Origin: Bacteroidales bacterium
GTDB taxonomy: Bacteria; Bacteroidota; Bacteroidia; Bacteroidales; F082
DNA: 64,000 nt
Assembly: GCA_013141455.1 (NCBI GenBank)
Contig: JABFQW010000029.1
Location: forward strand, 1 to 64,000
Direction of reading: 5' to 3'
Part shown: piece by piece, positions 8,985-28,169 of the stretch
How positions within the stretch are numbered: the stretch's first letter is position 1
Layout: each line of letters opens with the position of its first letter
Made by a program: the position numbers and the translations under genes
Notes under the pieces: model-generated
Seen by the model: the letters and a program-made list of their open reading frames with translations, nothing else
What the model was told of the DNA's origin: nothing
Database searches by the model: none

Positions 8985-9440
8985 ATGCGTTATCTCCTGA
9001 TTTTCATTGTTCTTCTACTTTTTGCCTGCAAGCCCGGCAGGGTACCTGACCAATTGATGCCTGCCCGGATAGCCGGACTGTGGAAATCGGAAGGGAATTT
9101 AGTTTTTTATGAGCAATGGGACATTCTGCCCGATTCATCCCTGTCAGGCAGAGGATTCAGTATAAATGGTACAGATACGCTTGTACTCGAAAACCTCCGG
9201 ATCGCGAAACTCAACGACACCTTATATTATTTTGCCACGGTATATAAACAGAACAAAGGCATCGAAATACCATTTAAACTTGTTCATTCAGCTGGCAATC
9301 GCTGGGTATTCGAAAACGCGAAACACGATTATCCTAACCGGATTATTTACCAGTTGGAAAGCGACACGGTACTATTTGCCAGAACCGAAAATATCAGGGG
9401 AAACAAACCCGTTGAATTTCATTTTAAAAGATTGAAATAA
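8985..9440 (+). CDS. Small lipoprotein, DUF6265-like
   Basis: 151 residues with a signal peptide and lipobox (LLFAC, Cys about 15). The mature part has the pattern IAGLWKSEGNLVFYEQW and a C-terminal WVFENAKHDYPNRIIY, which resembles DUF6265 lipocalin-like small proteins; family assignment is by eye. The stop codon overlaps the ATG of the nitroreductase gene by one base (TAATG), implying translational coupling. Confidence 0.65.
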   Translation: MRYLLIFIVLLLFACKPGRVPDQLMPARIAGLWKSEGNLVFYEQWDILPDSSLSGRGFSINGTDTLVLENLRIAKLNDTLYYFATVYKQNKGIEIPFKLVHSAGNRWVFENAKHDYPNRIIYQLESDTVLFARTENIRGNKPVEFHFKRLK

Positions 9441-10006
9441 TGGAGTTTAATTCGTTAATACAACTTCGGCAAAGCGTTCGTAAATATGCTGACAAACCGG
9501 TTGAACGGGAGAAACTGATTGCCTGTATCGAAGCGGCCCGCTTAGCGCCATCGGCAAGCAACTCACAACCATGGACATTTGTACTTGTCGATGAAAAACA
9601 GTTGCTCGGGAAAGTGGCAAAATTAACTTTTGGGCCGCTGGGTACATTCAATAAATTCGTTCCCGAAGCACCGGCAATCTTAGTGATGGTACTTGAGAAA
9701 CCAAAACTGATAACCGATATCGGTGGCCGGCTCAAAAAGAAAGAATACCCCCTGATCGACATCGGTATAGCAGCCGAACATTTTTGTTTGCAGGCAGCCG
9801 AACTCGAACTCGGAACCTGCATGTTGGGTTGGTTCAACGAACCGAAAATCAAAGAATTACTGCATATTCCAGTCGAAAAAACCATCGGATTGCTGATCAC
9901 GGTTGGTTATGCACCAGACAACTATGCCCAACGAAAGAAAATAAGAAAACCCCTGAACGAGGTGTTGCGGTTAAATGGATATGGTAATGTGAAAATTAGT
10001 GAATGA
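9440..10006 (+). CDS. Nitroreductase family FMN enzyme
   Basis: 188-residue flavoprotein of the NfsA/FrasE-like nitroreductase superfamily. N-terminal LIQLRQSVRKYADKPV with the phosphate-binding Arg pair, LAPSASNSQPWTFVLV, a central CLQAAELELGTCMLGWF that supplies FMN and active-site contacts, and the tail GYAPDNYAQRKKIRKPL. It probably reduces quinone, nitro or enone substrates with NAD(P)H. Coupled to the preceding lipoprotein gene. It is paralogous in fold to the enzyme at 34.6-35.2 kb. Confidence 0.88.
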   Translation: MEFNSLIQLRQSVRKYADKPVEREKLIACIEAARLAPSASNSQPWTFVLVDEKQLLGKVAKLTFGPLGTFNKFVPEAPAILVMVLEKPKLITDIGGRLKKKEYPLIDIGIAAEHFCLQAAELELGTCMLGWFNEPKIKELLHIPVEKTIGLLITVGYAPDNYAQRKKIRKPLNEVLRLNGYGNVKISE

Positions 10007-14401: not shown

Positions 14402-15106
14402 TCAATAAAACTTTGAAATTCTTACCAATTCCTGTGGGTTTAAAATGATGATTTTTTTGCCATCGATGCTGATGATACCATCGTCTTTCAACCCATAAAG
14501 CAAACGGACAACCGTTTCGGTGGCCACACCCAACATATTGGCAAGGTCGTCGCGCGACAAGATTATTTCAACCCGATCAGCGACAGTTTTCTGCTTAAAC
14601 TTGGCAGCTAATAACAGCAACATCAGCGCAAGACGCTCTTTGGCGGTCATACGCGACATCACGGTGATGCTGTTTGTCATCACACCAAACTCATGACTTA
14701 AACTCGATAATAAATTGAGCATCAACTTGTTTGATGCATTGGTAAGTTGCAAAAATACCTCATCGGAAATGAATTGTATTTTCGACACCTCAAGAGCCGC
14801 TGCCGAATCGGGATAAGGTTCATTGCACAAAAGCGCCGAATAACCAAGCAACTCACCGGTCGAACAGAGATACAAAATATGCTCCTTGCCCGATTGATCT
14901 GTCTTGTATTTTTTTACTAAGCCGTCCTTGATGAAAAACACTCCTGCCGGATACGATCCTTCCAAAAAAATGCGCTGCCCTTTGCGATAGGTCTTCTCTT
15001 CCATCTTTTGCTCGAGTTGAAGACGAACATCTTCGGGTATGTTTCTGAAGATAGAATCACTCTTGGAAGTGAATTTATCTATCGGGAAAATATTATTTAC
15101 ATCCAT
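14402..15106 (-). CDS. Crp/Fnr family transcriptional regulator
   Basis: 234 residues. Cyclic-nucleotide-binding-type beta-roll (GQRIFLEGSYPAGVFFIKDGLVKKY, GELLGYSALL), dimer helix, and C-terminal helix-turn-helix (LSRDDLANMLGVATETVVRLLYGLKDDGII). The recognition helix has E-T-x-x-R like FNR (VETISR) and lacks the extra Arg of CRP, which suits TTGAT half-sites. The N-terminal cysteines of oxygen-sensing FNR are absent; two internal cysteines (LYLC, LLCN) are visible, so the signal is unknown. Divergent from the hydrogenase-like operon with a perfect FNR box between. Confidence 0.92.
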   Translation of the reverse strand: MDVNNIFPIDKFTSKSDSIFRNIPEDVRLQLEQKMEEKTYRKGQRIFLEGSYPAGVFFIKDGLVKKYKTDQSGKEHILYLCSTGELLGYSALLCNEPYPDSAAALEVSKIQFISDEVFLQLTNASNKLMLNLLSSLSHEFGVMTNSITVMSRMTAKERLALMLLLLAAKFKQKTVADRVEIILSRDDLANMLGVATETVVRLLYGLKDDGIISIDGKKIIILNPQELVRISKFY

Positions 15107-15306: not shown

Positions 15307-17325
15307 ATGGTTGTCTGGAGCATCTTATTATATTCATCATGGGGCATAACGATCCTCGGTTTGCTTGCCTTACCTTTTATCCCAATACGGTTTAAAGCAA
15401 ATTTCGCAGTCTTTATTTTATTTGCCAATGCCTTGCTAACAAGCGTATTGGTGTTGCCATCCTTAAGCGGTGAAGCCCTGAGTTTTGTTTTTTATGCCGG
15501 TTCGTTCGTAAAAGAAGTGCCGGTAAAAATTGACAGTCTTGCGGCCTGGTTTGTTTTAATCATCAATTTTACTTCAGTCACCGGTATTATTTATGGATCG
15601 GGGTATATGAAACCGTACACCGATTCGAAGGCAAAACTTAGTTTACACTGGATTTTGTATATACTCTTTCACTTATCGATGATCTGGGTTTGCCTGTTGC
15701 AGAATGGCTTTGCATTTTTGATCGCATGGGAAGCCATGTCGCTTACATCGATGTTGTTGGTTATCTTCGACCACAACAACACAAATACAATAAAAGCCGG
15801 CATCAATTATCTCGTTCAGATGCATTTGAGTATTGTTTTTCTGACAATTGGTTTTGTCTGGGTGTATTTCGTTACCGGTTCTTTCGGTTTTGAGGCCATT
15901 CACGAATTTTTTCTCAAACAAACCAATATCTGGTTATTCCTGATTTTCTTTGTCGGATTTGGTTTTAAAGCCGGGTTTGTTCCATTTCACAGCTGGTTGC
16001 CTCATGCCCATCCGGCAGCACCGTCGCATGTTTCGGGTGTTATGTCGGGTGTGATCGTTAAATTAGGTATTTACGGTATTATACGCATGATTTCGTTTTT
16101 ACATGCCGATTTCGTTTTGTTGGGTGAGATTATAATAACTGTCTCAGTTTTAACTGGTTTATATGGAATTATAAACGCGGCTGTTCATCGCGACTTTAAA
16201 AAAATGTTAGCCTATTGTACCATCGAAAACATTGGTATCATTGGCATTGGATTGGGGATTGGATTGATTGGCATGGGTACCAACTCGATCCTATTGTTTT
16301 ATCTCGGATTTGCGGGGGCCTTACTTCATGTATTGAACCATTCCCTGTTTAAATCACTGCTTTTTTATACTGCCGGATCCGTTTATCAGCAAACGCATAC
16401 GCGCGATATGGAAAAACTCGGGGGTCTATTGAAAAAGATGCCTAAAACGGCATTTCTATTCTTGATTGGTGCGATTGCCATCGGAGGCTTACCTCCATTT
16501 AACGGTTTCATTTCAGAATTCGTGATTTACGGTGGCCTGGTTGAGGGAATGAAGTTACAGAGTATCAGTTTGATAAGCTTACTTATTCTTACTTTTGCCG
16601 GCCTGAGCTTGATTGGCGGACTTTCTATATTGACTTTCACCAAAACGTTCGGAACCATCTTTTTGGGCAGTGAGCGCGAACACCATCACCAGGAACCAAA
16701 GGAAGTTTCGATGATCATGCTTTTGCCACAATATCTCATCATCGCCATGATGCTTAGTGTGGCCGTGTTCCCGCAGTGGTATCTCGAAATTACCGGTAAA
16801 ATATCGTATAATCTTATTTCATCATCAAATTTGTTTACCTCAGCTTTTGAACCATCCATCCTGGTGGCTTATTCAGAAACCATGAGCAGTATCAGCCTGT
16901 ATTCATTGATTTTTGTGGGGCTTATCGGATTATTTTGGTTGGTTCGTATGGCTGCAACCAAAGGGAAAAACCGGGTTTATGATGAAACATGGGGATGTGG
17001 ATATCAGGCTCCAAACAGCCGTATGCAATATTCAGGCAAATCGTTTTCAAAACCGTTGGGCAAAATGTTCAATTTTTTATTAATCGAGAAAAAGAATTAT
17101 CCGGAACTGACTGCCGGTGAGATTTTCCCGGAAACGAGGAAATATTCCTCTCATTACGTCGATTTCTTTGAGTATTATTTCATCGATAAGATGAACCAGC
17201 AGATTCTCTATTTCATCAATTACTTTAAGTTTATCCAAAATGGCCGCGTTCAGTCTTATGTCATGTATGGCATTGTTTTTATACTCGCTATTTTCGTCCT
17301 TACAATGTTTAATCTGGTAAAATGA
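15307..17325 (+). CDS. HyfB/NuoL-like antiporter subunit, first copy
   Basis: 672-residue polytopic membrane protein (about 14-16 helices) of the Mrp/NuoL/HyfB ion-translocating family. Retained channel residues: Glu in FLIAWEAMSL (TM5), Lys in GFKAGFVPFHSWLPHAHPAAPSH (TM7), Lys in VIVKLGIYGIIR (TM8) and Lys in LNHSLFKSLLFYTAG (TM12). The C-terminus has the hydrogenase-4-type signature DETWGCGYQ...RMQYSGKSF. First gene of the locus; it overlaps the next by 4 nt (ATGA). The antiporter machinery appears intact although the soluble arm lacks active-site ligands. Confidence 0.93.
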   Translation: MVVWSILLYSSWGITILGLLALPFIPIRFKANFAVFILFANALLTSVLVLPSLSGEALSFVFYAGSFVKEVPVKIDSLAAWFVLIINFTSVTGIIYGSGYMKPYTDSKAKLSLHWILYILFHLSMIWVCLLQNGFAFLIAWEAMSLTSMLLVIFDHNNTNTIKAGINYLVQMHLSIVFLTIGFVWVYFVTGSFGFEAIHEFFLKQTNIWLFLIFFVGFGFKAGFVPFHSWLPHAHPAAPSHVSGVMSGVIVKLGIYGIIRMISFLHADFVLLGEIIITVSVLTGLYGIINAAVHRDFKKMLAYCTIENIGIIGIGLGIGLIGMGTNSILLFYLGFAGALLHVLNHSLFKSLLFYTAGSVYQQTHTRDMEKLGGLLKKMPKTAFLFLIGAIAIGGLPPFNGFISEFVIYGGLVEGMKLQSISLISLLILTFAGLSLIGGLSILTFTKTFGTIFLGSEREHHHQEPKEVSMIMLLPQYLIIAMMLSVAVFPQWYLEITGKISYNLISSSNLFTSAFEPSILVAYSETMSSISLYSLIFVGLIGLFWLVRMAATKGKNRVYDETWGCGYQAPNSRMQYSGKSFSKPLGKMFNFLLIEKKNYPELTAGEIFPETRKYSSHYVDFFEYYFIDKMNQQILYFINYFKFIQNGRVQSYVMYGIVFILAIFVLTMFNLVK

Positions 17326-19346
17326 CCTCAATTACAGCATTTCTGGTGATCGCGCTGGTAGCAGTTATCCTCATTCCTTTTGTTGGGGTGAAGGGAAAAG
17401 CGGCAGTGGTTTATCTGGCTGTAATTCTCAATGCACTGATTTCAGGCAATCTGGCTGTTCAGGCTTTTTTTGGTCAACCCTTCGAATATATGTTTTCGGG
17501 AAGTTTAAGTCTTGGTATGATTCCGGTTCGTCTCGATGTGCTTTCAGCCTGGTTTATACTCATCATCAATTTCATTTTCATCACCGGGGGTTTTTACGGT
17601 TTGTTTTATATGAAAACTTACCAAAGCCAGCTAAAAAACCTGAGCCTGCATGGCATCGCCTTTGTGATGTTATATACTTCGCTCATCAGCCTGTGCGTGA
17701 TACAAAATGGCATGGTATTTCTGATAGCCTGGGAAATCATGGCACTTTCAGCTTTTGTGACAATCATCTTCGAACACAACAAAATTACAACCATCAAAGC
17801 CGGTATCAATTATATTATTCAATCGCATGTAGGTATAGTTTTTTTGATGCTTGGTTTTATGTGGGCTGCATTTAAAACCGGAAGTTACGATTTTCAGGTG
17901 ATAAGTGCCTATACATCAGGTCTGAATGGCGCTGCTCCTGTGATTCTGTTTCTGACATTTTTTGTTGCTTTCGCGATAAAAGCCGGTTTTGTACCTTTTC
18001 ATACCTGGCTTCCGTATGCGCATCCGGAAGCTCCGGCTCATATCTCGGGTATCATGTCGGGGGTTTTGATCAAAATCGGAATCTATGGAATATTGCGTAT
18101 GTTACTGGTTATCAAACCTGATTTTACCATAGTTGGATATATAATATTGGTTATTGCAGTAATTTCGGGCCTGTATGGCGTGATGCTTGCCATTGTGCAA
18201 CATAATCTGAAAAAACTACTTGCCTATCATAGCATCGAAAACATCGGCATTATCGGAATAGGAATAGGTATCGGATGTATTGGTATGGGCAGCAACAATA
18301 TGGTAGTGGCATCGCTGGGTTTTGCCGGTGCATTATTACATACCCTGAATCATGCCCTGTTTAAATCCCTCCTGTTTTTCACCGCCGGAAATGTTTATCA
18401 GGCCACACACACTTTAAATATCGAGCATCTGGGCGGGCTGATTAAGAAAATGCCGCAAACTGCAATTCTATTCCTGATTGCATCTATTGCTATTTCGGGC
18501 ATTCCGCCATTCAACGGATTTATCTCTGAGTTTATCCTCTACAGCGGCATGTATTATTGGCTTCAGGGCGCCACACTGATTACGATGATTGCCTCTGTTT
18601 TTTCGGTATTAGGTCTGGTGTTGATTGGCGGATTGGCCCTGCTTTGTTTCACCAAAGCATTCAGCGTGGTTTTTTTAGGACAGGAACGACATTCGTTTCA
18701 TCATGAAATAAAAGAAGTGCCTCAACTTCAAATTATTCCTTTATATTTCATCGCTTTTTTTATCGTAGTCATCGGGGTTTTTCCGAAGCATTTTATTGAA
18801 TTATTGGTTAAACCCGTTTCACTGCTGACAGGAAATATTGCAGTTGGCCGATTATTCGATAATAATCTTACCGATAGCATGCAACATATTACCTGGGCCG
18901 TGTGGGGGTTCATGCTGCTTATTTTAATCGTCTTTTTGATCAGGAAATATTTCATGCAAAAACGAATAGTTACCTCTGAAGCCACCTGGGGCTGCGCTTA
19001 TGTGGGACCGACTGAACGTATGCAATATACTGCAGGTTCCTTTGTGCGTTCTTATGCCAAGCTTTTGAAGCCGGTAATCATGTCAGTAAAAAGAGAAAAA
19101 GAGATTAAAGGTATTTTCCCGAAAGATGGTTATTATGAGTCGTTCACCTACGATAAACTTGAGAAATGGCTCATCGATAAACCCATCATTGCCATTAAAT
19201 CGTTCATGGGAAGGTTTATGTTTTTGCAAAACGGGAAATTACAGTTTTATATTTTGTATGGAATTCTTTTTGTGGTTTCAATCGTTTGTATTCCAATCAT
19301 ATACGAAACTATTATTCAGCTTATCGGTTATTTTAAACATATATAA
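17322..19346 (+). CDS. HyfB/NuoL-like antiporter subunit, second copy
   Basis: 674 residues, paralogous along its whole length to the preceding subunit (same WEIMALSAF, AIKAGFVPFHTWLPYAHPEAP, LIKIGIYGILR, LNHALFKSLLFFTAG and EATWGCAYV...RMQYTAGSF blocks), so the pair arose by tandem duplication. Its ATG overlaps the previous stop. Channel Glu and Lys residues are kept. Hydrogenase-4 operons usually have HyfB, HyfD and HyfF; here a second full HyfB takes the place of HyfD. Inferred role: an additional proton or sodium translocating module. Confidence 0.93.
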   Translation: MTSITAFLVIALVAVILIPFVGVKGKAAVVYLAVILNALISGNLAVQAFFGQPFEYMFSGSLSLGMIPVRLDVLSAWFILIINFIFITGGFYGLFYMKTYQSQLKNLSLHGIAFVMLYTSLISLCVIQNGMVFLIAWEIMALSAFVTIIFEHNKITTIKAGINYIIQSHVGIVFLMLGFMWAAFKTGSYDFQVISAYTSGLNGAAPVILFLTFFVAFAIKAGFVPFHTWLPYAHPEAPAHISGIMSGVLIKIGIYGILRMLLVIKPDFTIVGYIILVIAVISGLYGVMLAIVQHNLKKLLAYHSIENIGIIGIGIGIGCIGMGSNNMVVASLGFAGALLHTLNHALFKSLLFFTAGNVYQATHTLNIEHLGGLIKKMPQTAILFLIASIAISGIPPFNGFISEFILYSGMYYWLQGATLITMIASVFSVLGLVLIGGLALLCFTKAFSVVFLGQERHSFHHEIKEVPQLQIIPLYFIAFFIVVIGVFPKHFIELLVKPVSLLTGNIAVGRLFDNNLTDSMQHITWAVWGFMLLILIVFLIRKYFMQKRIVTSEATWGCAYVGPTERMQYTAGSFVRSYAKLLKPVIMSVKREKEIKGIFPKDGYYESFTYDKLEKWLIDKPIIAIKSFMGRFMFLQNGKLQFYILYGILFVVSIVCIPIIYETIIQLIGYFKHI

Positions 19347-19349
19347 GTT

Positions 19350-20255
19350 ATGTTAAGTTTTCTATTAATACTCATAGCAGCTTTCTTTTTCACGGGTGTT
19401 ATCATCCGGACGAAAAGCATTGCGTCGGGTCGTAAAGGGCCCGGGATACTGCAACCAATTAAAGATGTAATCAGGCTTTTTAAGAAGGGGGCTGTTTACA
19501 GTACTACAACCAGTTTCATATTTCAGATTGCACCAACGATCTATTTTTCGTCGGTGGTGATGGCGATGATGGTGGTTCCGTTTGGACAAGCGAAAGGCAT
19601 CATAAGTTTTAACGGCGATTTTGTCTTTTTTGCCTATGTGCTGGCCCTGGGTAAGTTTTTCAGCATCATTTCGGCTATGGATACAGGAAGCAGTTTCGAA
19701 GGTATGGGTGCCAGCCGCGAGGCGCTGTATTCGTTGTTTGCCGAACCGGCATTTTTCATCCTGATGGGATCATTTGCGCTACTCACCGGTCACACTTCGT
19801 TTCACCTAATGTTCATGGCTTTGCATCTTGGGTCATACGTTAGTTATGCCATCGCCCTGCTTGCTACTTTTGTGCTGGTGATGATTTTGATGGTTGAAAA
19901 CAGTCGTATGCCGATTGATGATCCTAAAACACACCTCGAACTCACCATGATACATGAGGTGATGATCTTAGATAACAGCGGTTTCGACCTTGGACTTATC
20001 CTGACCACAGGGTATCTGAAATTTGCTTTATATGGCGCGCTCATCGTTAATCTGTTTATCGGGATGGTTCCATATCAGTATGCCATTATGTTGTTTTTTG
20101 CAATTCAGTTCATATTGGCTGTATCGATAGGATTGATCGAATCGTTCATGGCACGTTTCAGGATGAGTCATAATCCGCAGTTTATTTTTACACTCACCTC
20201 GGTTAGTTTACTGATATTCTTTGGCGTATTGCTGGTGTTGGGAAAGTTTGTATAA
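19350..20255 (+). CDS. HyfC/NuoH-like membrane subunit
   Basis: 301 residues, about eight helices. Family signature: GPGILQPIKDVIRLFKK (cytoplasmic loop after TM1), DTGSSFEGMGASRE, and the charged segment NSRMPIDDPKTHLELTMIHE, which in NuoH/HyfC lines the junction between soluble arm and membrane arm. It links the large/small subunits to the antiporter modules. Starts 3 nt after the second HyfB-like gene. Confidence 0.94.
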   Translation: MLSFLLILIAAFFFTGVIIRTKSIASGRKGPGILQPIKDVIRLFKKGAVYSTTTSFIFQIAPTIYFSSVVMAMMVVPFGQAKGIISFNGDFVFFAYVLALGKFFSIISAMDTGSSFEGMGASREALYSLFAEPAFFILMGSFALLTGHTSFHLMFMALHLGSYVSYAIALLATFVLVMILMVENSRMPIDDPKTHLELTMIHEVMILDNSGFDLGLILTTGYLKFALYGALIVNLFIGMVPYQYAIMLFFAIQFILAVSIGLIESFMARFRMSHNPQFIFTLTSVSLLIFFGVLLVLGKFV

Positions 20256-20272
20256 ATTAAAAACCATATACA

Positions 20273-20905
20273 ATGATTGATGTATTATTGATAACATTTC
20301 TGATCACGCTGTTTTATATGGCCATTGCCAACAGGTTGATGACGTATATAAAAGTGTTGTCGTTGCAGGGAGTTTTGCTTTTTGTGGTCGCTTTCCTTCA
20401 GTTGCAGAAAGTTATTCCGATAAACCTTGGTTTAATTCTGTTAGAAACCATTGTCGTGAAAGCGGTTGTGGTGCCGTTGTTTTTGATGTATATTCTTCGC
20501 AGAAACAATATCACCCGCGAGGCCGAACCGTTTCTGTCAAATTTTTATTCGCTGATCATCACCACGCTAATTGTTGTACTTACGATCTTGCTTAGCAATA
20601 CGATACAAGACACCCATCTCGACAAAATTTTCTTCATTGTTGCTATGTCCACCTTGTTTTTTGGCTTATATCTGATTGCCTCAAGGCGCAAAATCATTAC
20701 CCATGTGATGGGTTATCTGGTGATTGAAAACGGGGTTTTCGTATTGTCGTTGGCCATTGGAAACGAAATGCCCATGTTGGTGAATCTTGGTATAATGCTC
20801 GATATTTTTGCCAGTGTACTGATATTGGGTATTTTTCTGAATAAAATTGGTGATGTATTTAAAGATGTTGACGTTGACCAGTTGAGTAATTTAAAAGACG
20901 TGTAA
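20273..20905 (+). CDS. HyfE-like membrane subunit
   Basis: 210 residues, about six helices, matching HyfE (its C-terminal part equals the NuoK module): LSLQGVLLFVVAFLQ early, LETIVVKAVVVPLFLMYILRR with Lys, and GYLVIENGVFVLSLAI with the NuoK-type Glu, then DIFASVLILGIFLNKI. Cotranscribed (17-nt gap). Expected to sit between HyfC and the antiporter subunits. Confidence 0.9.
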   Translation: MIDVLLITFLITLFYMAIANRLMTYIKVLSLQGVLLFVVAFLQLQKVIPINLGLILLETIVVKAVVVPLFLMYILRRNNITREAEPFLSNFYSLIITTLIVVLTILLSNTIQDTHLDKIFFIVAMSTLFFGLYLIASRRKIITHVMGYLVIENGVFVLSLAIGNEMPMLVNLGIMLDIFASVLILGIFLNKIGDVFKDVDVDQLSNLKDV

Positions 20906-20927
20906 TCATAAGTAATCCGTTGAATCT

Positions 20928-22355
20928 ATGACACTGATATATCTGATAGGCGCTATATTAATCGCTGTTGCACTCATTGTTAACAGAAACAAAACAGTCA
21001 ATTATAGTTTGGTGGTTTTGTTCCTTATCCTGCAATGGAGCTTCACTATTTATGCCTGTTTACATTATAAAGAAACCTTTTTAGACTATTTCACTTTCGA
21101 TTCGCTTGGGATTCTGTTACTGATTACGTTGAGTATTATCGCCATCCCGGCCATGATTCACAGCAAGATTTATGTAGAGCTGCATCACGAAAGCGGAGAA
21201 GTGCGTGCCATTTATTTTACCGCGATGGTCGGACTGATCACAGCCATTGGCGCCGGTTACCTTGCCAATCACATTGCCGTAACCTGGATTTTTACCGAAA
21301 TAACAACCCTCAGCGCTTCGGCGCTTATTTATCACCACCGCAATAAACTGGCGCTCGAGGGCACCTGGAAATATGTTTTCATTTGCGCCATCAGCATCAC
21401 TTTTGTATTTATCGGGATATTGTTTCTGAGCCTCTCGTTCGGACAAGCCGAAACAGATGATCTTTCATTTAAAAGTCTGTTCGAAAATGCATCGCGTTTA
21501 AATCCGTTTTGGTTACGATTAGCATTCCTTTTCATTTTTACAGGGTTCACAGCCAAGCTTGGTTTGGTTCCCATGTTTACAGCCGGTATCGATGCCAAGG
21601 ATAAGGCCCCGGCCCCGGCTGGCGCCCTTTTGTCGAGTGTGTTGATGAACCTTGGTTTTGTTGGTGTATTCCGCACCTATATCATTGTAGCCAACACCTC
21701 ATTGCATCACTGGGCAAACTTAGTTATCGCCATTGCGGCATTTCTATCCGTATTTGTGGCAACGGTTTATATGATCAAAGTGAAAAACATCAAACGGATG
21801 TTCGCCTATTCGGGTCTCGAACATATGGGCCTTGTGATGTTGGGCATTGCTGCCGGTGGCATTGGTTATTATGCCGCCATATTGCATGTTGTGTTACATG
21901 CCTTTGTAAAATCGAGCCTTTTCTTTCAGTTTAACCAGTTGTATCGCGTGTTTCAGAGTAAAAGCATGTATTACGTTGGTAATTATTTCAAGTATAATAC
22001 AACAGGAGCCATTGTGCTGCTGCTGGGTTTTATCAGCACAACAGCAATGCCTCCATCCGGCCTGTTCGTGAGCGAGTTTCTGATTTTCCGATCGATGTTC
22101 GAAGCACAGCAACTCGTATTGCTCATCGCGGTGCTTTTTCTGCTCACAATGATCATCTGGGCTTTTGGTAAAAATATTTTCAAAATCCTGTTTATTCCAC
22201 CCGTGGGATTTGACGAAAGCACAGTAGAAAGAATCAGTCCGTGGGAATCGGTAACGCAATTTGTTTTACTGGCCACTGCTGTTTATCTGGGTTTAAACCC
22301 ACCCGCTGAATTCGTGCAGTTAATCAACGACAGTATCACTTTATTACCCAAATGA
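20928..22355 (+). CDS. HyfF-like antiporter subunit
   Basis: 475 residues, NuoN/HyfF family. Visible: TWIFTEITTLSASALIYHH (TM5 Glu), FTAKLGLVPMFTAGIDAKDKAPAPAGALLSS (TM7 Lys, shortened loop), TM8 region SSVLMNLGFVGVFR where the usual Lys is Asn, KRMFAYSGLEHMGLV, and HAFVKSSLFFQ. One of three channel Lys positions is therefore altered; I cannot say whether this is normal for HyfF. The stop overlaps the ATG of the large-subunit gene by 4 nt. Confidence 0.9.
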   Translation: MTLIYLIGAILIAVALIVNRNKTVNYSLVVLFLILQWSFTIYACLHYKETFLDYFTFDSLGILLLITLSIIAIPAMIHSKIYVELHHESGEVRAIYFTAMVGLITAIGAGYLANHIAVTWIFTEITTLSASALIYHHRNKLALEGTWKYVFICAISITFVFIGILFLSLSFGQAETDDLSFKSLFENASRLNPFWLRLAFLFIFTGFTAKLGLVPMFTAGIDAKDKAPAPAGALLSSVLMNLGFVGVFRTYIIVANTSLHHWANLVIAIAAFLSVFVATVYMIKVKNIKRMFAYSGLEHMGLVMLGIAAGGIGYYAAILHVVLHAFVKSSLFFQFNQLYRVFQSKSMYYVGNYFKYNTTGAIVLLLGFISTTAMPPSGLFVSEFLIFRSMFEAQQLVLLIAVLFLLTMIIWAFGKNIFKILFIPPVGFDESTVERISPWESVTQFVLLATAVYLGLNPPAEFVQLINDSITLLPK

Positions 22356-23857
22356 TTATGAACTATATCAGCATAAAAAACCATCAGACAATTCCTGTTT
22401 CAACGATACCGATAACAGGCTACGAATCGTTTTTTGAGTTAAACACGGGTTTTATATTCGATCATCCTGAACGGCATTGTGTGAATTATTTCGGATATGA
22501 TGTTGATAACCAGGTGAAATTGATTTGTTGTGTGGCCGATGACGATACCCACGAAATTTTCGTTTCGGGCTGCATGGTTGATCGGGGAGCGAAACTGAAT
22601 TCATTTACTTTCAAACAGCTTTGTTTCGAAAAATACGAACGTGAAATACACGAAAACTTCGGCATTGATTACATCGATCATCCCTGGTTGAAACCTGTCA
22701 GATTTGCATCAAATCGTTCAGACAAATCACAAATTGTTGCTAATTATCCTTTCTTCGCCATTGAGAGTGAGGAGTTGCACGAAGTCGGCGTTGGTCCCAT
22801 CCATGCCGGTGTTATCGAACCCGGTCATTTCAGGTTTATCTGCAACGGCGAACAAATCCTTCATCTCGAAATTCAATTGGGCTACCAGCACCGTGGCATT
22901 GAGCAGCTTTTTCGTGAAAAGAAAACCATGCTTCAGCGTGCCACATTAGCCGAAAACATTGCCGGTGACACCGTTGTTGGTCACACCACGGCCTTTTCGT
23001 ATTTGTGGGAGAGTTTGTGTGGTTTCGAAGCCTCGCCTGACATTCATTTTTCGCGTTTGATTGCACTCGAACTCGAACGCATTGCCATTCATACCGGCGA
23101 TTTAAGCGCCATTTGCACCGACATCGCCTATCAATTAGGTAGTTCAGTGTTTGGACGTCTGCGCACACCCATCATCAACTTTTTGCAGGAATGGGGTGGT
23201 AACCGGCTTGCAAAGGGACTTATCCGACCCGGGCGAAACCAATTTCCATTTTCACCGGAACTTGCAAAACGGCTTAAAGAAGTCTTCGATGTTTTTGAGC
23301 CTGATTTTGATGAGATGAGCAGGGAGCTTACGAAATTACCCAGCGTATTGTCACGATTCGAGCGCACCGGCGTAGTGTCGATGGAAGATGTTCTGAATAT
23401 TGGCGCTGTTGGCATGGCGGCAAGGATGGGCGGTTCAAACCGCGATATCCGTGTTTCGCATCCTTACGGCCTGTATCCCGGATTGGATCATAAACCCATC
23501 ATCAAACATCATGGTGATGTGTATTCGAGAGTGCAGATCAGGAAACAGGAAGTGAAACAAAGCATGAAATACCTGCGGCAGTTGATGGAAGATGCACCGC
23601 TTCAGATAGCACCTGATACCCGTTTGGAAAATCCAAAACCGGATTCCTTTACACTTTCGTTAGTTGAAGGCTGGCGAGGCGAAATATGTCATTGTGCCAT
23701 TACAGATGCGAAAGGCGAATTGGTGATTTATAAAATTAAAGACCCATCTTTTCATAACTGGCTGGCGCTGGCATTGGCGGTCAGAAACAACGAGATTTCC
23801 GATTTTCCGATTTGTAACAAGAGTTTCAATTTGTCGTATTGCGGGCATGATTTGTAG
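22352..23857 (+). CDS. HyfG/HycE-like large subunit lacking [NiFe] ligands
   Basis: 501 residues: NuoC-like N-terminal domain (about 1-120; FGIDYIDHPWLKPVRF) fused to a NuoD/hydrogenase-large domain (about 145-501; GVGPIHAGVIEPGHF, HLEIQLGYQHRGIEQLF, MGGSNRDIRVSHPYG). In [NiFe] enzymes the first metal motif is E-R-x-C-G-x-C-x-x-x-H; here it reads ENIAGDTVVGH (201-211): both Cys are replaced (Ala204, Thr207), only the His remains. The C-terminal CxxC motif is SFNLSYCGHDL with a single Cys497 and no processable tail. Not a hydrogenase; consistent with Ehr (hydrogenase-related) complexes. Start at 22352 or 22358. No maturation genes nearby. Confidence 0.92.
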   Translation: MIMNYISIKNHQTIPVSTIPITGYESFFELNTGFIFDHPERHCVNYFGYDVDNQVKLICCVADDDTHEIFVSGCMVDRGAKLNSFTFKQLCFEKYEREIHENFGIDYIDHPWLKPVRFASNRSDKSQIVANYPFFAIESEELHEVGVGPIHAGVIEPGHFRFICNGEQILHLEIQLGYQHRGIEQLFREKKTMLQRATLAENIAGDTVVGHTTAFSYLWESLCGFEASPDIHFSRLIALELERIAIHTGDLSAICTDIAYQLGSSVFGRLRTPIINFLQEWGGNRLAKGLIRPGRNQFPFSPELAKRLKEVFDVFEPDFDEMSRELTKLPSVLSRFERTGVVSMEDVLNIGAVGMAARMGGSNRDIRVSHPYGLYPGLDHKPIIKHHGDVYSRVQIRKQEVKQSMKYLRQLMEDAPLQIAPDTRLENPKPDSFTLSLVEGWRGEICHCAITDAKGELVIYKIKDPSFHNWLALALAVRNNEISDFPICNKSFNLSYCGHDL

Positions 23858-24068
23858 TTTTTAAAAGTCGGAAGACCGGAGACGGAAGACCGAAGTCAAT
23901 TAAAGCATTAGAAAATAAATAAACACAAAAGGCTTTATCATTTTGAGAACAATCACTTTCACAGTAGAAAATCAACTTCTGTCTTCCGTCTTCCGACTTC
24001 CGTCTTCCGACTTCCGTCTATGAATCAATCTGTTCATTCTCATCAGAATCAATAACATCACTTAAACT
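23858..24068. repeat. Inverted low-complexity repeat between large- and small-subunit genes
   Basis: GTCGGAAGACCGGAGACGGA-type words (about 23868-23897) are complementary to repeated CTTCCGTCTTCCGACTTCCG-type words (about 23976-24020), giving a long stem with a loop of about 80 nt. Similar words occur at 27204-27250 and 37034-37070. It may terminate or attenuate transcription before the small-subunit gene. Confidence 0.65.
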
Positions 24069-24827
24069 ATGTTCGAAAACATAAAAATACTTTACCATCA
24101 GGGAAAACAGTTCATTCCTAATGTAACAACGGTTGAAGTTCCGGGTATTTTCAGGGGACGGCCAGTGATCAGTATGGTAAAAGTTGACGAATCAACCTTA
24201 CAGGATTTGTGTCCGACCAATGCTATTTCACTTAACCCGGTAAGTATCGACCTGGGCAAATGCACTTTCTGCGGAGAGTGCGCCAGGGTATTTCCTGATA
24301 AAATAAGATTCACCAAAGATTATAAACTTTCGACCAACGAACGCGATCGGTTAATTGTTCGTGAAGGTGAAGATAAGATTGTTGAAGTGAATCCCGAGAC
24401 GGTTAGGAAAGAGATTCATCGTGTTTTTGGCCGTTCATTAAAACTACGGCAGATTTCGGCTGCTGGCGACAACAGTTGCGAATGGGAATTGGGCGCAGCC
24501 AATAATGTTCAGTTCGATATGGGACGCTTCGGGATTGAGTTTGTTGCCTCACCGCGCCATGCCGATGGAATCGTGATTACAGGACCCATTTCGGAGAATA
24601 TGGCTGTTCCATTGCAGATCTGTTATGATGCCGTTCCCGATCCAAAGATCATCGTGCTTGTGGGCACTGACGCGATCAGTGGCGGTATTTTTGCCGGCAG
24701 TCCGGCCTTAGACCGCAGTTTCCTGGAAAAATATCACATCGATTTGTACATTCCGGGCAACCCGGCCCATCCGCTCACGATCATCAACGGACTGCTCGAT
24801 CTGACGAGGAAACTTTCGAAAAAATAG
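24069..24827 (+). CDS. Ferredoxin/HyfI-like small-subunit fusion with degenerate proximal cluster
   Basis: 252 residues. N-terminal ferredoxin part (about 30-80) has CTFCGEC (65, 68, 71) plus Cys48 in LCPTNA, enough for one [4Fe-4S] cluster; the second ferredoxin cluster is missing. The C-terminal NuoB/HycG-like part (about 130-245; RFGIEFVASPRHADGIVITGP, DLYIPGNP) has lost proximal-cluster ligands: CxxC is CEWE (137-140), the GTCACSGG Cys is GTDAISGG (Asp201), and PGCP is PGNP (Asn231). The complex can hold one cluster but has no obvious path to an active site. HyfH and HyfI functions appear fused here. Confidence 0.9.
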   Translation: MFENIKILYHQGKQFIPNVTTVEVPGIFRGRPVISMVKVDESTLQDLCPTNAISLNPVSIDLGKCTFCGECARVFPDKIRFTKDYKLSTNERDRLIVREGEDKIVEVNPETVRKEIHRVFGRSLKLRQISAAGDNSCEWELGAANNVQFDMGRFGIEFVASPRHADGIVITGPISENMAVPLQICYDAVPDPKIIVLVGTDAISGGIFAGSPALDRSFLEKYHIDLYIPGNPAHPLTIINGLLDLTRKLSKK

Positions 24828-25013: not shown

Positions 25014-25571
25014 TTGGTGGAGACGACCGTCATCGACATACACAGCGAGCTTGTAACATTGAGTGCCCGGGGCGACAGCAAGGCGCAGTATCAGTTGTAC
25101 AAATTATACGCGAAAGCCATGCTCAACGTGAGTTACCGTATGATGCGAAATGTGGAAGATGCCGAAGATATGCTTCAGGAAGCCTTCACCGAAGCCTTTA
25201 AAAAACTAAATTATTTCCGTTTTGAAGCGACTTTTGGGAGCTGGCTCAAGAAAATCGTTGTTAATCGTTGTATGAATGAATTGCGTCGCCGTAAAGCTGA
25301 TCTGCAGTTTTTTGATGATATGCAGCGCTTCGAACAACGCACCGAAGAAGAACTTGTGCTACCGGAACTGAGTGTTGATAAGGTGAAACAGGCGATGGAA
25401 AGTTTGCCGGGTGGCAGCAGAATGATTTTTTCGCTCTATGTTCTCGAAGGTTACGACCATAACGAAATATCGGATATATTACAAATTTCGGTTTCTACCT
25501 CAAAATCACAATATATGCGCGCACGTTTGCAGGTAAAACAATTACTAATACAACAAGGCTATGAAAACTGA
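25014..25571 (+). CDS. ECF-type RNA polymerase sigma factor
   Basis: 185 residues. Region 2 (AQYQLYKLYAKAMLNVSYRMM, NVEDAEDMLQEAFTEAFKKL) and region 4 (VKQAMESLPGGSRMIFSLYVLEGYDHNEISDILQISVSTSKSQYMRARLQVKQLL). The start codon is TTG at 25014 or the adjacent GTG at 25017; the next ATG would delete part of region 2. The following gene starts before this one ends (overlap about 11 nt), as in sigma/anti-sigma pairs. Confidence 0.93.
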   Translation: MVETTVIDIHSELVTLSARGDSKAQYQLYKLYAKAMLNVSYRMMRNVEDAEDMLQEAFTEAFKKLNYFRFEATFGSWLKKIVVNRCMNELRRRKADLQFFDDMQRFEQRTEEELVLPELSVDKVKQAMESLPGGSRMIFSLYVLEGYDHNEISDILQISVSTSKSQYMRARLQVKQLLIQQGYEN

Positions 25572-26118
25572 CCATCTGGAACAATTTATTATCGAAAACA
25601 AAGCTGAATTCGATACGCTGGAGCCTTCCGAAAAAATGTGGGAAAGAATTGAATCTGAACAAAATAAAAAGATGAAGTTCAAAATCAGGCCTCTTCTCTA
25701 TAAAATTACTGCCGCCGCTGCCATCTTTATTGCCGGTTATTTTTTGAGTGATCTGATGCATTTCAGGAATGCCCAATCATCTGATGTTGTGACAGAAAGC
25801 ACTGTTTCACCTGAAATACAGGCATTTTTAGAGGCGCGTGCCTATTATACTTCGTTGATCAACCAGAAGGAATCACAGGTTTTTCAGCTTGCAGGAGATA
25901 ATCCGCAATTAAAAACGGATATCAACAACGAATTCAAACACTTAGATAAAATTTACAAGGAACTTGAACAGGATTTGTCGGATCAGGTGGCCAACGAAGA
26001 AGTGATTGAAGCCATGATTCAACATTACCGCATTAAACTGAATATACTCGAAGATATGCTGCAACAACTTAAACCCGATAAAAGCGCCAAAGAAAGTGAG
26101 GTACAATATGTTATTTAA
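25561..26118 (+). CDS. Probable anti-sigma / membrane regulator
   Basis: 185 residues: acidic cytoplasmic N-terminus (MKTDHLEQFIIENKAEFDTLEPSEKMWERIE), one transmembrane helix about residues 46-64, then a periplasmic helical region about 80-180 rich in Glu and Lys. Topology and position directly behind an ECF sigma gene suggest an anti-sigma factor, though no zinc-binding HxxxCxxC motif is present. The gene overlaps the sigma gene and the downstream DUF4097-like gene. Confidence 0.7.
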   Translation: MKTDHLEQFIIENKAEFDTLEPSEKMWERIESEQNKKMKFKIRPLLYKITAAAAIFIAGYFLSDLMHFRNAQSSDVVTESTVSPEIQAFLEARAYYTSLINQKESQVFQLAGDNPQLKTDINNEFKHLDKIYKELEQDLSDQVANEEVIEAMIQHYRIKLNILEDMLQQLKPDKSAKESEVQYVI

Positions 26119-27202
26119 AAAATCAATCGGGATTGGGCTTGTCTGTCTCGGATTCATCATCCCCGCTCAGGCCCAGCTCATCGAAAAAACAAAGAGTTAC
26201 AATAAAACCTTTCCGGTAAGCAAAACAACTGAACTTACGGTAACAAACAAATATGGTAACATCCACCTGATGCAATGGCCTAAGGATTCAGTTAAGTTTG
26301 AAGTACAGGTGAGGGTTGCCGATTTAAAAGATTATCGGGTTGAAAAATTATTCAACGAAATAGATGTGGATTTCAACCATTCGCCTTACTACGTGAATGC
26401 CACGACAACCTTCGCGGGATCGAACAAACTCTGGAGTGAATTATCGGATATGACCAAAAGCGTAATGAATTCGGGTAGTGCCACCACCATCAACTACACC
26501 ATTTATTTACCAGATTATATTCGGGTCAATATCGATAACCGTTTTGGAAATATATACACAACGGATCACAAAAATAATTCAGAGTTTCATCTGTCGAACG
26601 GTACGCTTCAGGCAAACGATCTGCACGGCAAGTGTTCGATCAAAATTGAGTTCGGTAATGTGAATATAAACTATATCGAAGAGGGTCGGATCGAATTAAA
26701 CTATTCAGAAATTGATCTGGCAACCGGGAAAAACATCAACCTGATTGGCCGTTCATCTACGGCCCAACTGGGTGATATTGAACAATTAAACCTCGATTCG
26801 AGACGCGATAAAATCACGGTCAATACTGTGAAATCCATTACCGGCGAAACCTCGTTTTCGCGACTGACAGTTAATCATCTGCAAACGGATTTCATGGTGA
26901 AATCGGAATATGGAACCATTCAATTCATGAAAATGTCGCCCGAAATAAAATATTTACAGCTGAATGCTGCCTATACTGTAACAAACTTGTATGCAAATCC
27001 GTCAATAAACGCTGATGTTGAAGCTACATTTTCCAAAAAAACGAAAATTGTTTATCCACCCGCGATGATAAATATCGAAAGGCAACAAATCAATTTACAG
27101 GAAGATACCAATTTGTTTAAAGGCCGGTTGGGTAATGGAAATGCAGGTGAATTTAAATTTAACCTCACAGGTGGCGAATTGAATATCTATATGAAACCTT
27201 GA
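26096..27202 (+). CDS. Secreted beta-repeat protein (DUF4097/GIN-domain-like)
   Basis: 368 residues with signal peptide (LVCLGFIIPAQAQ). Beta-strand repeats such as LTVTNKYGNIHLMQWPKDSV, VNIDNRFGNIYTTDHKN and CSIKIEFGNVNINYIEEG have the recurrent 'x-N-x-(Y/F)-G-N-I' turn of DUF4097-type beta helices. Overlaps the anti-sigma-like gene by 23 nt. Probably an envelope protein regulated with, or feeding back on, the sigma factor. Confidence 0.8.
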   Translation: MRYNMLFKKSIGIGLVCLGFIIPAQAQLIEKTKSYNKTFPVSKTTELTVTNKYGNIHLMQWPKDSVKFEVQVRVADLKDYRVEKLFNEIDVDFNHSPYYVNATTTFAGSNKLWSELSDMTKSVMNSGSATTINYTIYLPDYIRVNIDNRFGNIYTTDHKNNSEFHLSNGTLQANDLHGKCSIKIEFGNVNINYIEEGRIELNYSEIDLATGKNINLIGRSSTAQLGDIEQLNLDSRRDKITVNTVKSITGETSFSRLTVNHLQTDFMVKSEYGTIQFMKMSPEIKYLQLNAAYTVTNLYANPSINADVEATFSKKTKIVYPPAMINIERQQINLQEDTNLFKGRLGNGNAGEFKFNLTGGELNIYMKP

Positions 27203-27443
27203 AGAGTTGGAAGACCGAAGACGGAAGACGGAAGAAGCCTGCCTCGGCTGAAGGACGAGGGAAGACGCCTGCCTCGGTGGTACGGCAAAGAAAGCACGAA
27301 ATTTAAAAATATATTGTAAAGAATAATTATATGAAAAAGGGAAACTTTACTTCGGTCTTCTAACTTCGGTCACCTGACTAAATAATTAAACCAGAAAATA
27401 AATGTTAAACCCAAAATAGAATCACTTAAAAAAATCAAGTTTT
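27203..27443. repeat. Low-complexity GGAAGACC/GGTCTTCC repeat region
   Basis: GGAAGACCGAAGACGGAAG-type words (about 27210-27232), a GCCTGCCTCGG direct repeat (27238-27248 and 27269-27279), then complementary ACTTCGGTCTTCTAACTTCGG near 27350-27370. It folds back on itself and separates two transcription units of the sigma-factor cluster. Confidence 0.55.
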
Positions 27444-28169
27444 ATGAGGAAATATTATAATTATGCAGTGATGGCGCTTCTTATGCTAAGCTTGCTGATC
27501 ACCGGAGGATGTTACAAAGATTACAACTGTATCGATGGAAATGGTAATGCCATCAACGAAACCAGAACCATGAGCCCGTTTCATGAAGTAGTATGCAATG
27601 GTTCGTACGAAGTAACGGTATTACCCGGAAACGCTCACGAAGTTGTGGTTGATGCCGAATCGAATCTCATTCATTACATCAGAACTTCGGTTGCGGGAGG
27701 ACGATTGTATCTTGACACCGAAAACAATCATTGTATAAACAACAGCATTCCGGTTCTTATTACGGTGTATTCACCCTTTGTTGACGGTCTCGACCTGAAT
27801 GGTTCGGGGTCAATCAGGGCAAGCGGGTTGTATATTGAATATTTAAACCTGAATATCAGCGGATCAGGTAATATTGATGTGAATGCAGATGCACTTCAAT
27901 TAAAGGCAAGGATTTCCGGTTCCGGTTCGATGGATATCAATGGCGTTTGTGGGACCAGTGACCTTAATGTTAGCGGATCAGGCAATATACATGCGTATGG
28001 TATGATGCAGGATGAATGTCTGGCAACGATATCCGGTTCAGGTAATATTTATGCAACGGTGAATCAAATACTTGACGGAAAGATTTCGGGCAGTGGCAAT
28101 ATTTACTACAAAGGAAATCCAATGGTTTATCAGGATATTTCGGGGTCAGGAAGAATAATTAAACAATAA
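27444..28169 (+). CDS. DUF2807 (putative auto-transporter adhesin, head GIN) lipoprotein
   Basis: 241 residues: signal peptide and lipobox (ITGGC, Cys about 23), then the DUF2807 pattern starting TRTMSPFHEVVCNGSYEVTV and at least six repeats of (S)GSG(x)I-type turns (GSGSIRASG, ISGSGNIDVN, ISGSGSMDING, VSGSGNIHAYG, ISGSGNIYAT, ISGSGNIYYKG). This is a right-handed beta-helix. Surface-exposed lipoprotein inferred; fits the preceding DUF4097-like protein. Confidence 0.9.
   Translation: MRKYYNYAVMALLMLSLLITGGCYKDYNCIDGNGNAINETRTMSPFHEVVCNGSYEVTVLPGNAHEVVVDAESNLIHYIRTSVAGGRLYLDTENNHCINNSIPVLITVYSPFVDGLDLNGSGSIRASGLYIEYLNLNISGSGNIDVNADALQLKARISGSGSMDINGVCGTSDLNVSGSGNIHAYGMMQDECLATISGSGNIYATVNQILDGKISGSGNIYYKGNPMVYQDISGSGRIIKQ

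Follow-up and report, generated by a model that had tools for sequence, protein, structure and literature searches.

A Bacteroidales Ehr operon from a branch in which conserved acidic and amide residues replace ligands of the N2 cluster in the small subunit

As relatives of the group 4 [NiFe] hydrogenases devoid of Ni-Fe ligands, the Ehr complexes have a function that is still unsettled (PMC6349859, PMC6728331, PMC10284858, PMC7304191, PMC10432482, PMC4378227). They are generally suspected of coupling redox reactions to ion transport (PMC6349859), their proteins were more abundant with formate (PMC7894505), and a role in pH homeostasis has been suggested (PMC6688271). A seven-gene operon of this type lies at positions 15307-24827 (+) of a 64,000-nucleotide stretch of contig JABFQW010000029.1 from a Bacteroidales bacterium (assembly GCA_013141455.1), the whole stretch being called the window hereafter. 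In this operon, the ligands of the proximal iron-sulfur cluster, namely N2, are replaced in the small subunit in addition to those of the Ni-Fe site; as developed below, N2-less Ehr are a distinct branch with a conserved replacement, while about half of the sampled relatives keep the N2 cysteines.

The seven open reading frames (ORFs) are all intact and co-directional, and neighbouring ORFs overlap or are separated by short gaps, with the exception of the 211 bases preceding the last gene. They encode, all on the + strand, (i) B1, a HyfB/NuoL-like antiporter subunit of 672 residues (15307..17325), (ii) B2, a second HyfB-like subunit of 674 residues paralogous to B1 (17322..19346), (iii) C, a HyfC/NuoH-like subunit of 301 residues (19350..20255), (iv) E, a HyfE-like subunit of 210 residues with a NuoK-like C-terminal part (20273..20905), (v) F, a HyfF/NuoN-like antiporter subunit of 475 residues (20928..22355), (vi) L, a HyfG/HycE/NuoCD-like large subunit of 501 residues without Ni-Fe cysteines (22352..23857), and (vii) S, a fusion of a ferredoxin domain with a NuoB/HycG-like domain, of 252 residues (24069..24827). 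In Pfam and NCBIfam, Proton_antipo_M is matched in B1, B2 and F, NADHdh in C, Complex1_49kDa in L, and Oxidored_q6 plus Fer4 in S, while E matches the hydrogenase-4 membrane subunit (HyfE-type); the NCBIfam hydrogenase-4 matches are under their curated cut-offs. The group-4-like architecture that the original prediction had read from the DNA, i.e., two HyfB, HyfC, HyfE, HyfF, HyfG and a ferredoxin/small-subunit fusion, is thus present in full.

Among described systems, the seven-locus group-4-like cluster GSU0739-0745 of Geobacter sulfurreducens resembles this operon, with its NuoL-like, HyfE-like, EhrL and EhrS proteins and no Ni-Fe motifs reported for Ehr (PMC6349859, PMC7894505, PMC10284858, PMC4378227). 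The window shares the features by which Ehr are recognised, namely a large subunit without Ni-Fe CxxC motifs and NuoH-, NuoL- and HyfE-like subunits in one operon. It differs in that the N2 ligands of S have become D/D/N and the distal ferredoxin ligands are gone, a contrast drawn from 105 related S rows rather than from Geobacter EhrS itself. The proximal-cluster ligand set seen in relatives with all four N2 cysteines is missing from the window S, and we found no published Ehr criterion that includes such a set. A literature search that took in PMC8691401, its coverage stopping short of the founding Ehr papers and of work on complex I evolution, returned no description of small-subunit cluster loss in Ehr; PMC13358369 and PMC9568556 held no relevant Ehr text.

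With Escherichia coli Hyf and Hyc, the operon has in common the subunit types B, C, E, F, G, H and I and related L and S folds, but it lacks the Ni-Fe ligands, the N2 set and a C-terminal extension past the fourth ligand position; its HyfH- and HyfI-like parts are fused, and none of the seven genes is a counterpart of those named HyfA, HyfD or HyfJ. It does not qualify as a group 4 [NiFe] hydrogenase, having no Ni-Fe set of two CxxC motifs and an L that falls outside HycE and HyfG. In a quick L tree (without L135, L066, L065, L055, L096 and L076), these two hydrogenases, included with one NuoD as outgroup, group together and apart from the other 94 rows (support 99). Clustering inside bona fide hydrogenases, which would have spoken against the proposed Ehr-type label, is not seen, and the label is supported. 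Complex I (NuoB/C/D/H/I/K/L/M/N) offers homologous arms whose pump and E-channel residues are kept in the window; unlike complex I, the seven genes include no NADH module (no NuoE/F/G-like match), N2 set or complete N6a-like set. Complex I genes (locus L029 included) are found elsewhere in the window genome (G000; 4.39 Mb, 95% complete), which has PF00374 [NiFe] hydrogenase matches as well. Lastly, the Mrp (Mnh/Pha) antiporters consist of NuoL/N-like subunits without redox chemistry, and the window complex would work alike; in contrast to Mrp, it keeps NuoH-, NuoD-, NuoB- and NuoI-like parts, and its nearest relatives are hydrogenase-like. No MrpE/F/G-type small subunit is present among the seven proteins, and MNHE has no match in the window genome, the genome-wide search having covered neither MrpF nor MrpG.

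The small subunit carries the principal difference. Aligned with the cysteines of HycG and of MbhJ, which S matches at 5e-23, the four N2/proximal ligand positions of S read D134, C137, D201 and N231, encoded on the + strand at 24468..24479 (D134, Cys in relatives, and C137, i.e., the former CxxC), 24669..24671 (D201, the former third ligand) and 24759..24761 (N231, the former fourth). The AlphaFold2 (AF2) model of S (predicted local distance difference test, pLDDT, 88.5) finds HycG and MbhJ as its best Foldseek matches (top 7z0s_G, E 1e-10), and a PHROGs scan gave a single weak match of unknown function. Supply of the N2 ligands by a second S gene was rejected, the window genome holding one S match at E ≤1e-30. 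The claim that the proximal FeS site is mostly gone thus stands in refined form: each lost cysteine is now a conserved acid or amide, and one full [4Fe-4S] motif survives, namely C48 with C65, C68 and C71 (24210..24281, +). By the rule for two-cluster ferredoxins, this cysteine pattern binds one [4Fe-4S] cluster, which we take, from complex I, to be of N6b type and to adjoin N2.

The replacement recurs among relatives. Besides the window, 104 loci were compared, 11 from a phylum sample, 13 from close relatives and 80 from named contigs (the best 80 of at least 581); most are contigs of metagenome-assembled genomes (MAGs), with start codons set by rule and some ORFs over-extended. A row with all four N2 cysteines in S is termed CCCC or N2-keeping, and N2-less otherwise. 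L135, a duplicate of L067, was dropped before counting, and L137, considered further below, is excluded from the group statistics of S, L, C, E and F and included in the B rows. The S statistics are without L102 and L113 (length), and those of L without L113 and L116 (length), L055, L065, L066, L076 and L096 (cut) and L063, L070, L078, L079 and L091 (no L found). The 105 S rows divide into 53 CCCC and 52 others, 40 of the latter being exactly D-C-D-N. The 50 filtered N2-less rows have 49 D and one E at position 134, 46 D, three E and one H at position 201, 46 N at position 231, and 41 C at position 137, where the others have A, V, N, H, G, D or I. Acids at both 134 and 201 are found in 49/50, and together with N231 in 46/50. 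When S, L, C, E and F were compared column by column between the two groups, zero overlap was seen only at S 134, 201 and 231. A further 29 S loci of the same order, all picked by similarity to the S of L137 and four of them from genomes already used, comprise 28 of acid-x-acid-N type and one CCCC. As such, the change of N2 ligands does not look like random decay. A DCDN-type S also occurs at L073:2864-3619, on a contig labelled Phycisphaerae, perhaps by mis-binning or transfer.

These counts bear on whether the complex is after all an oxidoreductase like other Ehr, in which the surviving [4Fe-4S] alone would pass electrons to some unknown acceptor and the loss of N2 would be incidental. The surviving set C48/C65/C68/C71 is complete in 50/50 N2-less and in 51/51 other S rows, which speaks for this view, and a coupling of redox to ions is what is generally suspected for Ehr (PMC6349859). 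Yet the ligands of N2 are missing, and only 1/52 non-CCCC rows, namely L071, has a complete distal (N6a-like) cysteine set, which leaves electrons without a known path to the cavity; moreover, conserved acids and an amide, with three Asp in a separate lineage, are not predicted by neutral loss. We consider this explanation quite improbable. The exceptional row, S at L071:1950-2717 of a Cytophagales MAG, has D-D-H-S at the N2 site and both ferredoxin cysteine sets intact, possibly an intermediate in which the loss began with N2.

The large subunit matches HycE of the E. coli formate hydrogenlyase (5e-30) and Pyrococcus MbhL (1e-29), and its AF2 model (pLDDT 85.3) has as its top Foldseek match 7z0s_E of E. 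coli formate hydrogenlyase (E 1e-27). Alignment with HycE, MbhL and Thermus Nqo4 places A204, T207, S495 and G498 in the four Ni-Fe cysteine columns, in agreement with the predicted absence of the Ni-Fe site; the codons are at 22961..22972 (A204-T207, CxxC in hydrogenases) and 23834..23845 (S495-G498, the C-terminal CxxC), both on the + strand, and the ORF stops three residues past the fourth ligand position. S495 and G498 are invariant in all 91 L rows. At the first of the four, 17/49 N2-keeping versus 1/42 N2-less rows retain Cys, meaning that this cysteine alone survives in some relatives. G205 aligns with a Tyr position of Nqo4 that we take to be that of the quinone-binding tyrosine. Nor are Ni-Fe cysteines found elsewhere in L: C43, C255, C446 and C448 are conserved in the branch, but they make no two CxxC motifs.

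The main rival explanation starts from these very cysteines. It holds that a metal centre has relocated to the L/S interface, formed by D134, D201, N231 and C137 of S with C255, C446 and C448 of L, and that redox or metal chemistry continues with a new cofactor. C255 (23114..23116, +) is Cys in 39/42 N2-less rows, Ala being commonest in N2-keeping rows, and C446 (with C448 at 23687..23695, +) in 40/42; the CCCC row L018, which branches with the N2-less group, lacks both (Asn at 255) while sharing H42, C43 and H468, of which H42 and H468 are found in 42/42 N2-less rows. C255 stands two residues before D257, which pairwise alignment places against an Asp of Nqo4, presumably the quinone-site Asp139, and C446 stands four residues past the conserved R442; the Fe-S motif kept throughout the N2-less S rows could feed such a site. 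Working against it, C137 is kept in only 41/50 rows and C448 in 33/42, rows without one keeping the others, so that there is no fixed four-Cys set, and C446 is also Cys in 7/49 N2-keeping rows. As far as alignment can tell, the conserved residues of L would suit a new metal site as well as a pocket kept for a ligand or for gating. On balance, a relocated centre seems rather unlikely.

Turning to the membrane arm, the B, F and C positions tested are pump residues. The original prediction that the Glu/Lys residues of the two HyfB-like subunits are preserved was borne out, with E142, K221, K252, K349 and E404 intact in B1 and E138, K220, K251 and E403 in B2; the same is true of F (E124, K210, K328 and E383), except for Asn at the position in transmembrane helix (TM) 8. 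C likewise keeps D111, E132, E183, D190, E197, E203 and other acidic residues. In the 43 non-CCCC B rows (one from L137), all seven positions tested are kept, the TM5 Glu, the TM7, TM8 and TM11 Lys and the TM12 Glu among them. The four F residues are found in 36/36 non-CCCC rows, with the TM8 Asn in 34/36, and in C, 10 of the 11 tested positions are kept in 33/33, D39 in 30/33. Compared with a copy from the same genus, the ratio of non-synonymous to synonymous substitution rates (dN/dS) is 0.049 for S, 0.053 for L and 0.020 for a partial F, at dS values (0.88-1.73) near saturation; by this comparison, all three are under purifying selection.

A degenerating, functionless remnant would account for the lost Ni-Fe, distal and N2 ligands and for a patchy presence, S being matched (E ≤1e-60) in 67/295 genomes of the order, at least one of them CCCC. 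The many intact operons, the dN/dS of about 0.05, the kept pump residues and the gain of an extra subunit all run counter to it, which makes a remnant hardly credible; decay as such was rejected on selection and conservation. At E ≤1e-30, S is matched in 12/296 genomes of the phylum sample, two of which are N2-less, i.e., G000 and G009.

The history of the branch was followed in L, which does not contain the N2-ligand trait itself. In the L tree, in which the named loci related to the window come from Bacteroidota, the N2-less rows minus L137 are in one group (100/100) that includes L018. The placement of this CCCC row within the group is weakly supported (86/32), and a clade of these N2-less rows without L018 is not rejected by the approximately unbiased test (p-AU 0.453). 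In a quick tree of the B subunit, L018 instead joins the subgroup that has a single HyfB (99, by the Shimodaira-Hasegawa-like approximate likelihood ratio test, SH-aLRT, only); should this placement be correct, the subgroup of the window and the other one lost N2 independently, or else L018 acquired its S by another route.

The locus L137:536-7752 is a separate Ehr-like operon lineage with the S gene first. It groups with L026 and L027, both CCCC (100/100), and its S, 58-59% identical to those of the L026 and L027 genomes, has D-C-D-D at the N2 site and no ferredoxin domain; it is a single MAG locus whose contig ends about 600 bases upstream, where a separate ferredoxin gene is possible. Since a single origin including L137 is rejected (p-AU 5e-55), the acidic replacement arose at least twice. 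Aside from its own genome, no relative of the L137 type closer than 1e-38 was found in the order sample, and the two nearest in the phylum sample, G014 and G097, are both CCCC.

In the quick B tree, B1 and B2 are sister groups (96; B1 99, B2 91) nested inside 33 rows, all N2-less, and both B copies of L130 sit in the B1 group. From this nesting, the duplication that gave B1 and B2 most likely postdates the loss of N2 in that lineage. Independent duplications of HyfB are seen in L021/L022/L025 and in L124. The N2-less branch with its conserved replacement, and the doubled HyfB having arisen inside it, go beyond what the original prediction contained.

The surroundings of the operons differ between the two groups. 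An EIIA-type gene adjoins 18/40 evaluable N2-keeping loci versus 0/28 evaluable N2-less ones, heading the operon in 17 clustered loci and with helix-turn-helix (HTH) and phosphotransferase system (PTS) EIIA domains in the three examined; SulP is found in the flanks of 8/30 evaluable N2-keeping versus 1/17 evaluable N2-less loci. Some SulP transporters carry bicarbonate. In one N2-keeping operon, a SulP-STAS-PTS EIIA fusion gene (L027:6939-9140) even stands between L and S. Such neighbours hint that Ehr complexes act in ion or anion transport, and they bring to mind DAB2, a carbonic anhydrase driven by the proton motive force (PMF) and having a complex-I-like transmembrane subunit (PMC13144422). 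By analogy, the operon could encode a PMF-coupled non-redox enzyme whose NuoL-like arm would drive or gate, e.g., CO2/HCO3- chemistry in the L cavity. To the existence of this precedent and to the SulP and EIIA neighbours can be added the polar cavity residues of L, invariant in the N2-less group; nevertheless, the neighbours are those of N2-keeping loci, being nearly absent from N2-less ones, and no DabA-type or carbonic-anhydrase-type Pfam family (E ≤0.001) was matched by the seven proteins. We judge such an enzyme improbable.

The reading that we favour, at somewhat less than an even chance, is that of an Ehr complex whose electron wire to the former active site has been removed and which would act as a gated translocator of H+ or of cations and H+ rather than as an oxidoreductase. 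Its basis in the proteins is the combination of no Ni-Fe ligands, no full N2 or distal set and one isolated N6b-like motif; the bimodal replacement at N2 with its acidic counterpart in the lineage of L137, the kept antiporter and E-channel residues, the purifying selection and the HyfB gained in the N2-less group all count for it, as do SulP near the N2-keeping relatives and the L027 fusion. The membrane arm (B1, B2 and F with E and C) would move H+, or swap H+ for Na+ or K+, down an existing gradient, while the L/S arm might serve as gate or coupling element by way of the Asp pair and of the polar cavity that it has kept, responding to protonation or to the binding of a metal or ligand. The single cluster of S would be structural, or a sensor of redox state or O2, redox sensing by it being possible. 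The original prediction, which foresaw an ion pump or an antiporter whose soluble arm is regulatory, is compatible with this evidence, the function itself being something we infer.

Several observations weigh against a gated translocator. The cavity positions H151, D206, H211 and H468 of L are kept in 42/42 N2-less rows, and invariant polar residues there suggest that the complex does more than antiport passively, be it chemistry or the binding of a ligand; the branch-typical cysteines of L could likewise hold another cofactor. Given the near absence of SulP from N2-less flanks and no SulP match in the window genome, the transport context of the N2-keeping relatives does not carry over. Nor is there a sign of complementarity with Mrp, 14 of the 67 genomes with Ehr S also having MNHE against 16.4 expected over the 295 order genomes, about the level of chance.

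As for the neighbourhood of the window operon, a divergent gene of the CRP/FNR family (14402..15106, -), with a homologue at only one other searched locus (L130), is a weak candidate for its regulator. No common neighbour of N2-less operons was found among the 30 largest neighbour clusters, each family occurring at three N2-less loci at most, when clusters confined to L126-L128, which are one family, are set aside. A nitroreductase-family gene (9440-10006) lies 5 kb upstream, and nitroreductases are also near the N2-less L048, L076 and L078. Downstream (25014-28169) come an extracytoplasmic function (ECF) sigma factor, two proteins without Pfam match and a DUF2807 (head GIN domain) protein. 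Between the L and S genes, at 23860-24045, repeats of about seven bases (TTCCGTC/TTCCGAC) form an array in which both orientations occur; of the nine window matches to a 15-mer (≤2 mismatches), six sit there, with 0.03 expected per window, and the exact 15-mer has two copies across the whole genome. Finally, a Rhodoferax MAG contig (L099:3231-20660) bears two different Ehr-like clusters inside 20 kb, the second with an S of 172 residues that has no ferredoxin domain and keeps the N2 cysteines.

Taken at its widest, the comparison makes it conceivable, if still short of probable, that a widespread complex-I-like branch has abandoned electron transfer, with N2 turned into Asp/Asp/Asn, a similar acidic change in a separate lineage and then an extra antiporter subunit. 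A long-standing question about complex I is how redox near the N2/quinone site drives distant proton pumping. The N2-less complexes are a natural, conserved set in which pump, E-channel and cavity residues are kept and the ligands of the terminal electron donor removed; comparing N2-less with N2-keeping Ehr would be a direct test of whether coupling needs electrons, a change of charge, or conformational gating only. For the Bacteroidota, it also means that genes automatically annotated as "hydrogenase-4" or "NADH dehydrogenase" may be unrelated to hydrogen or NADH.

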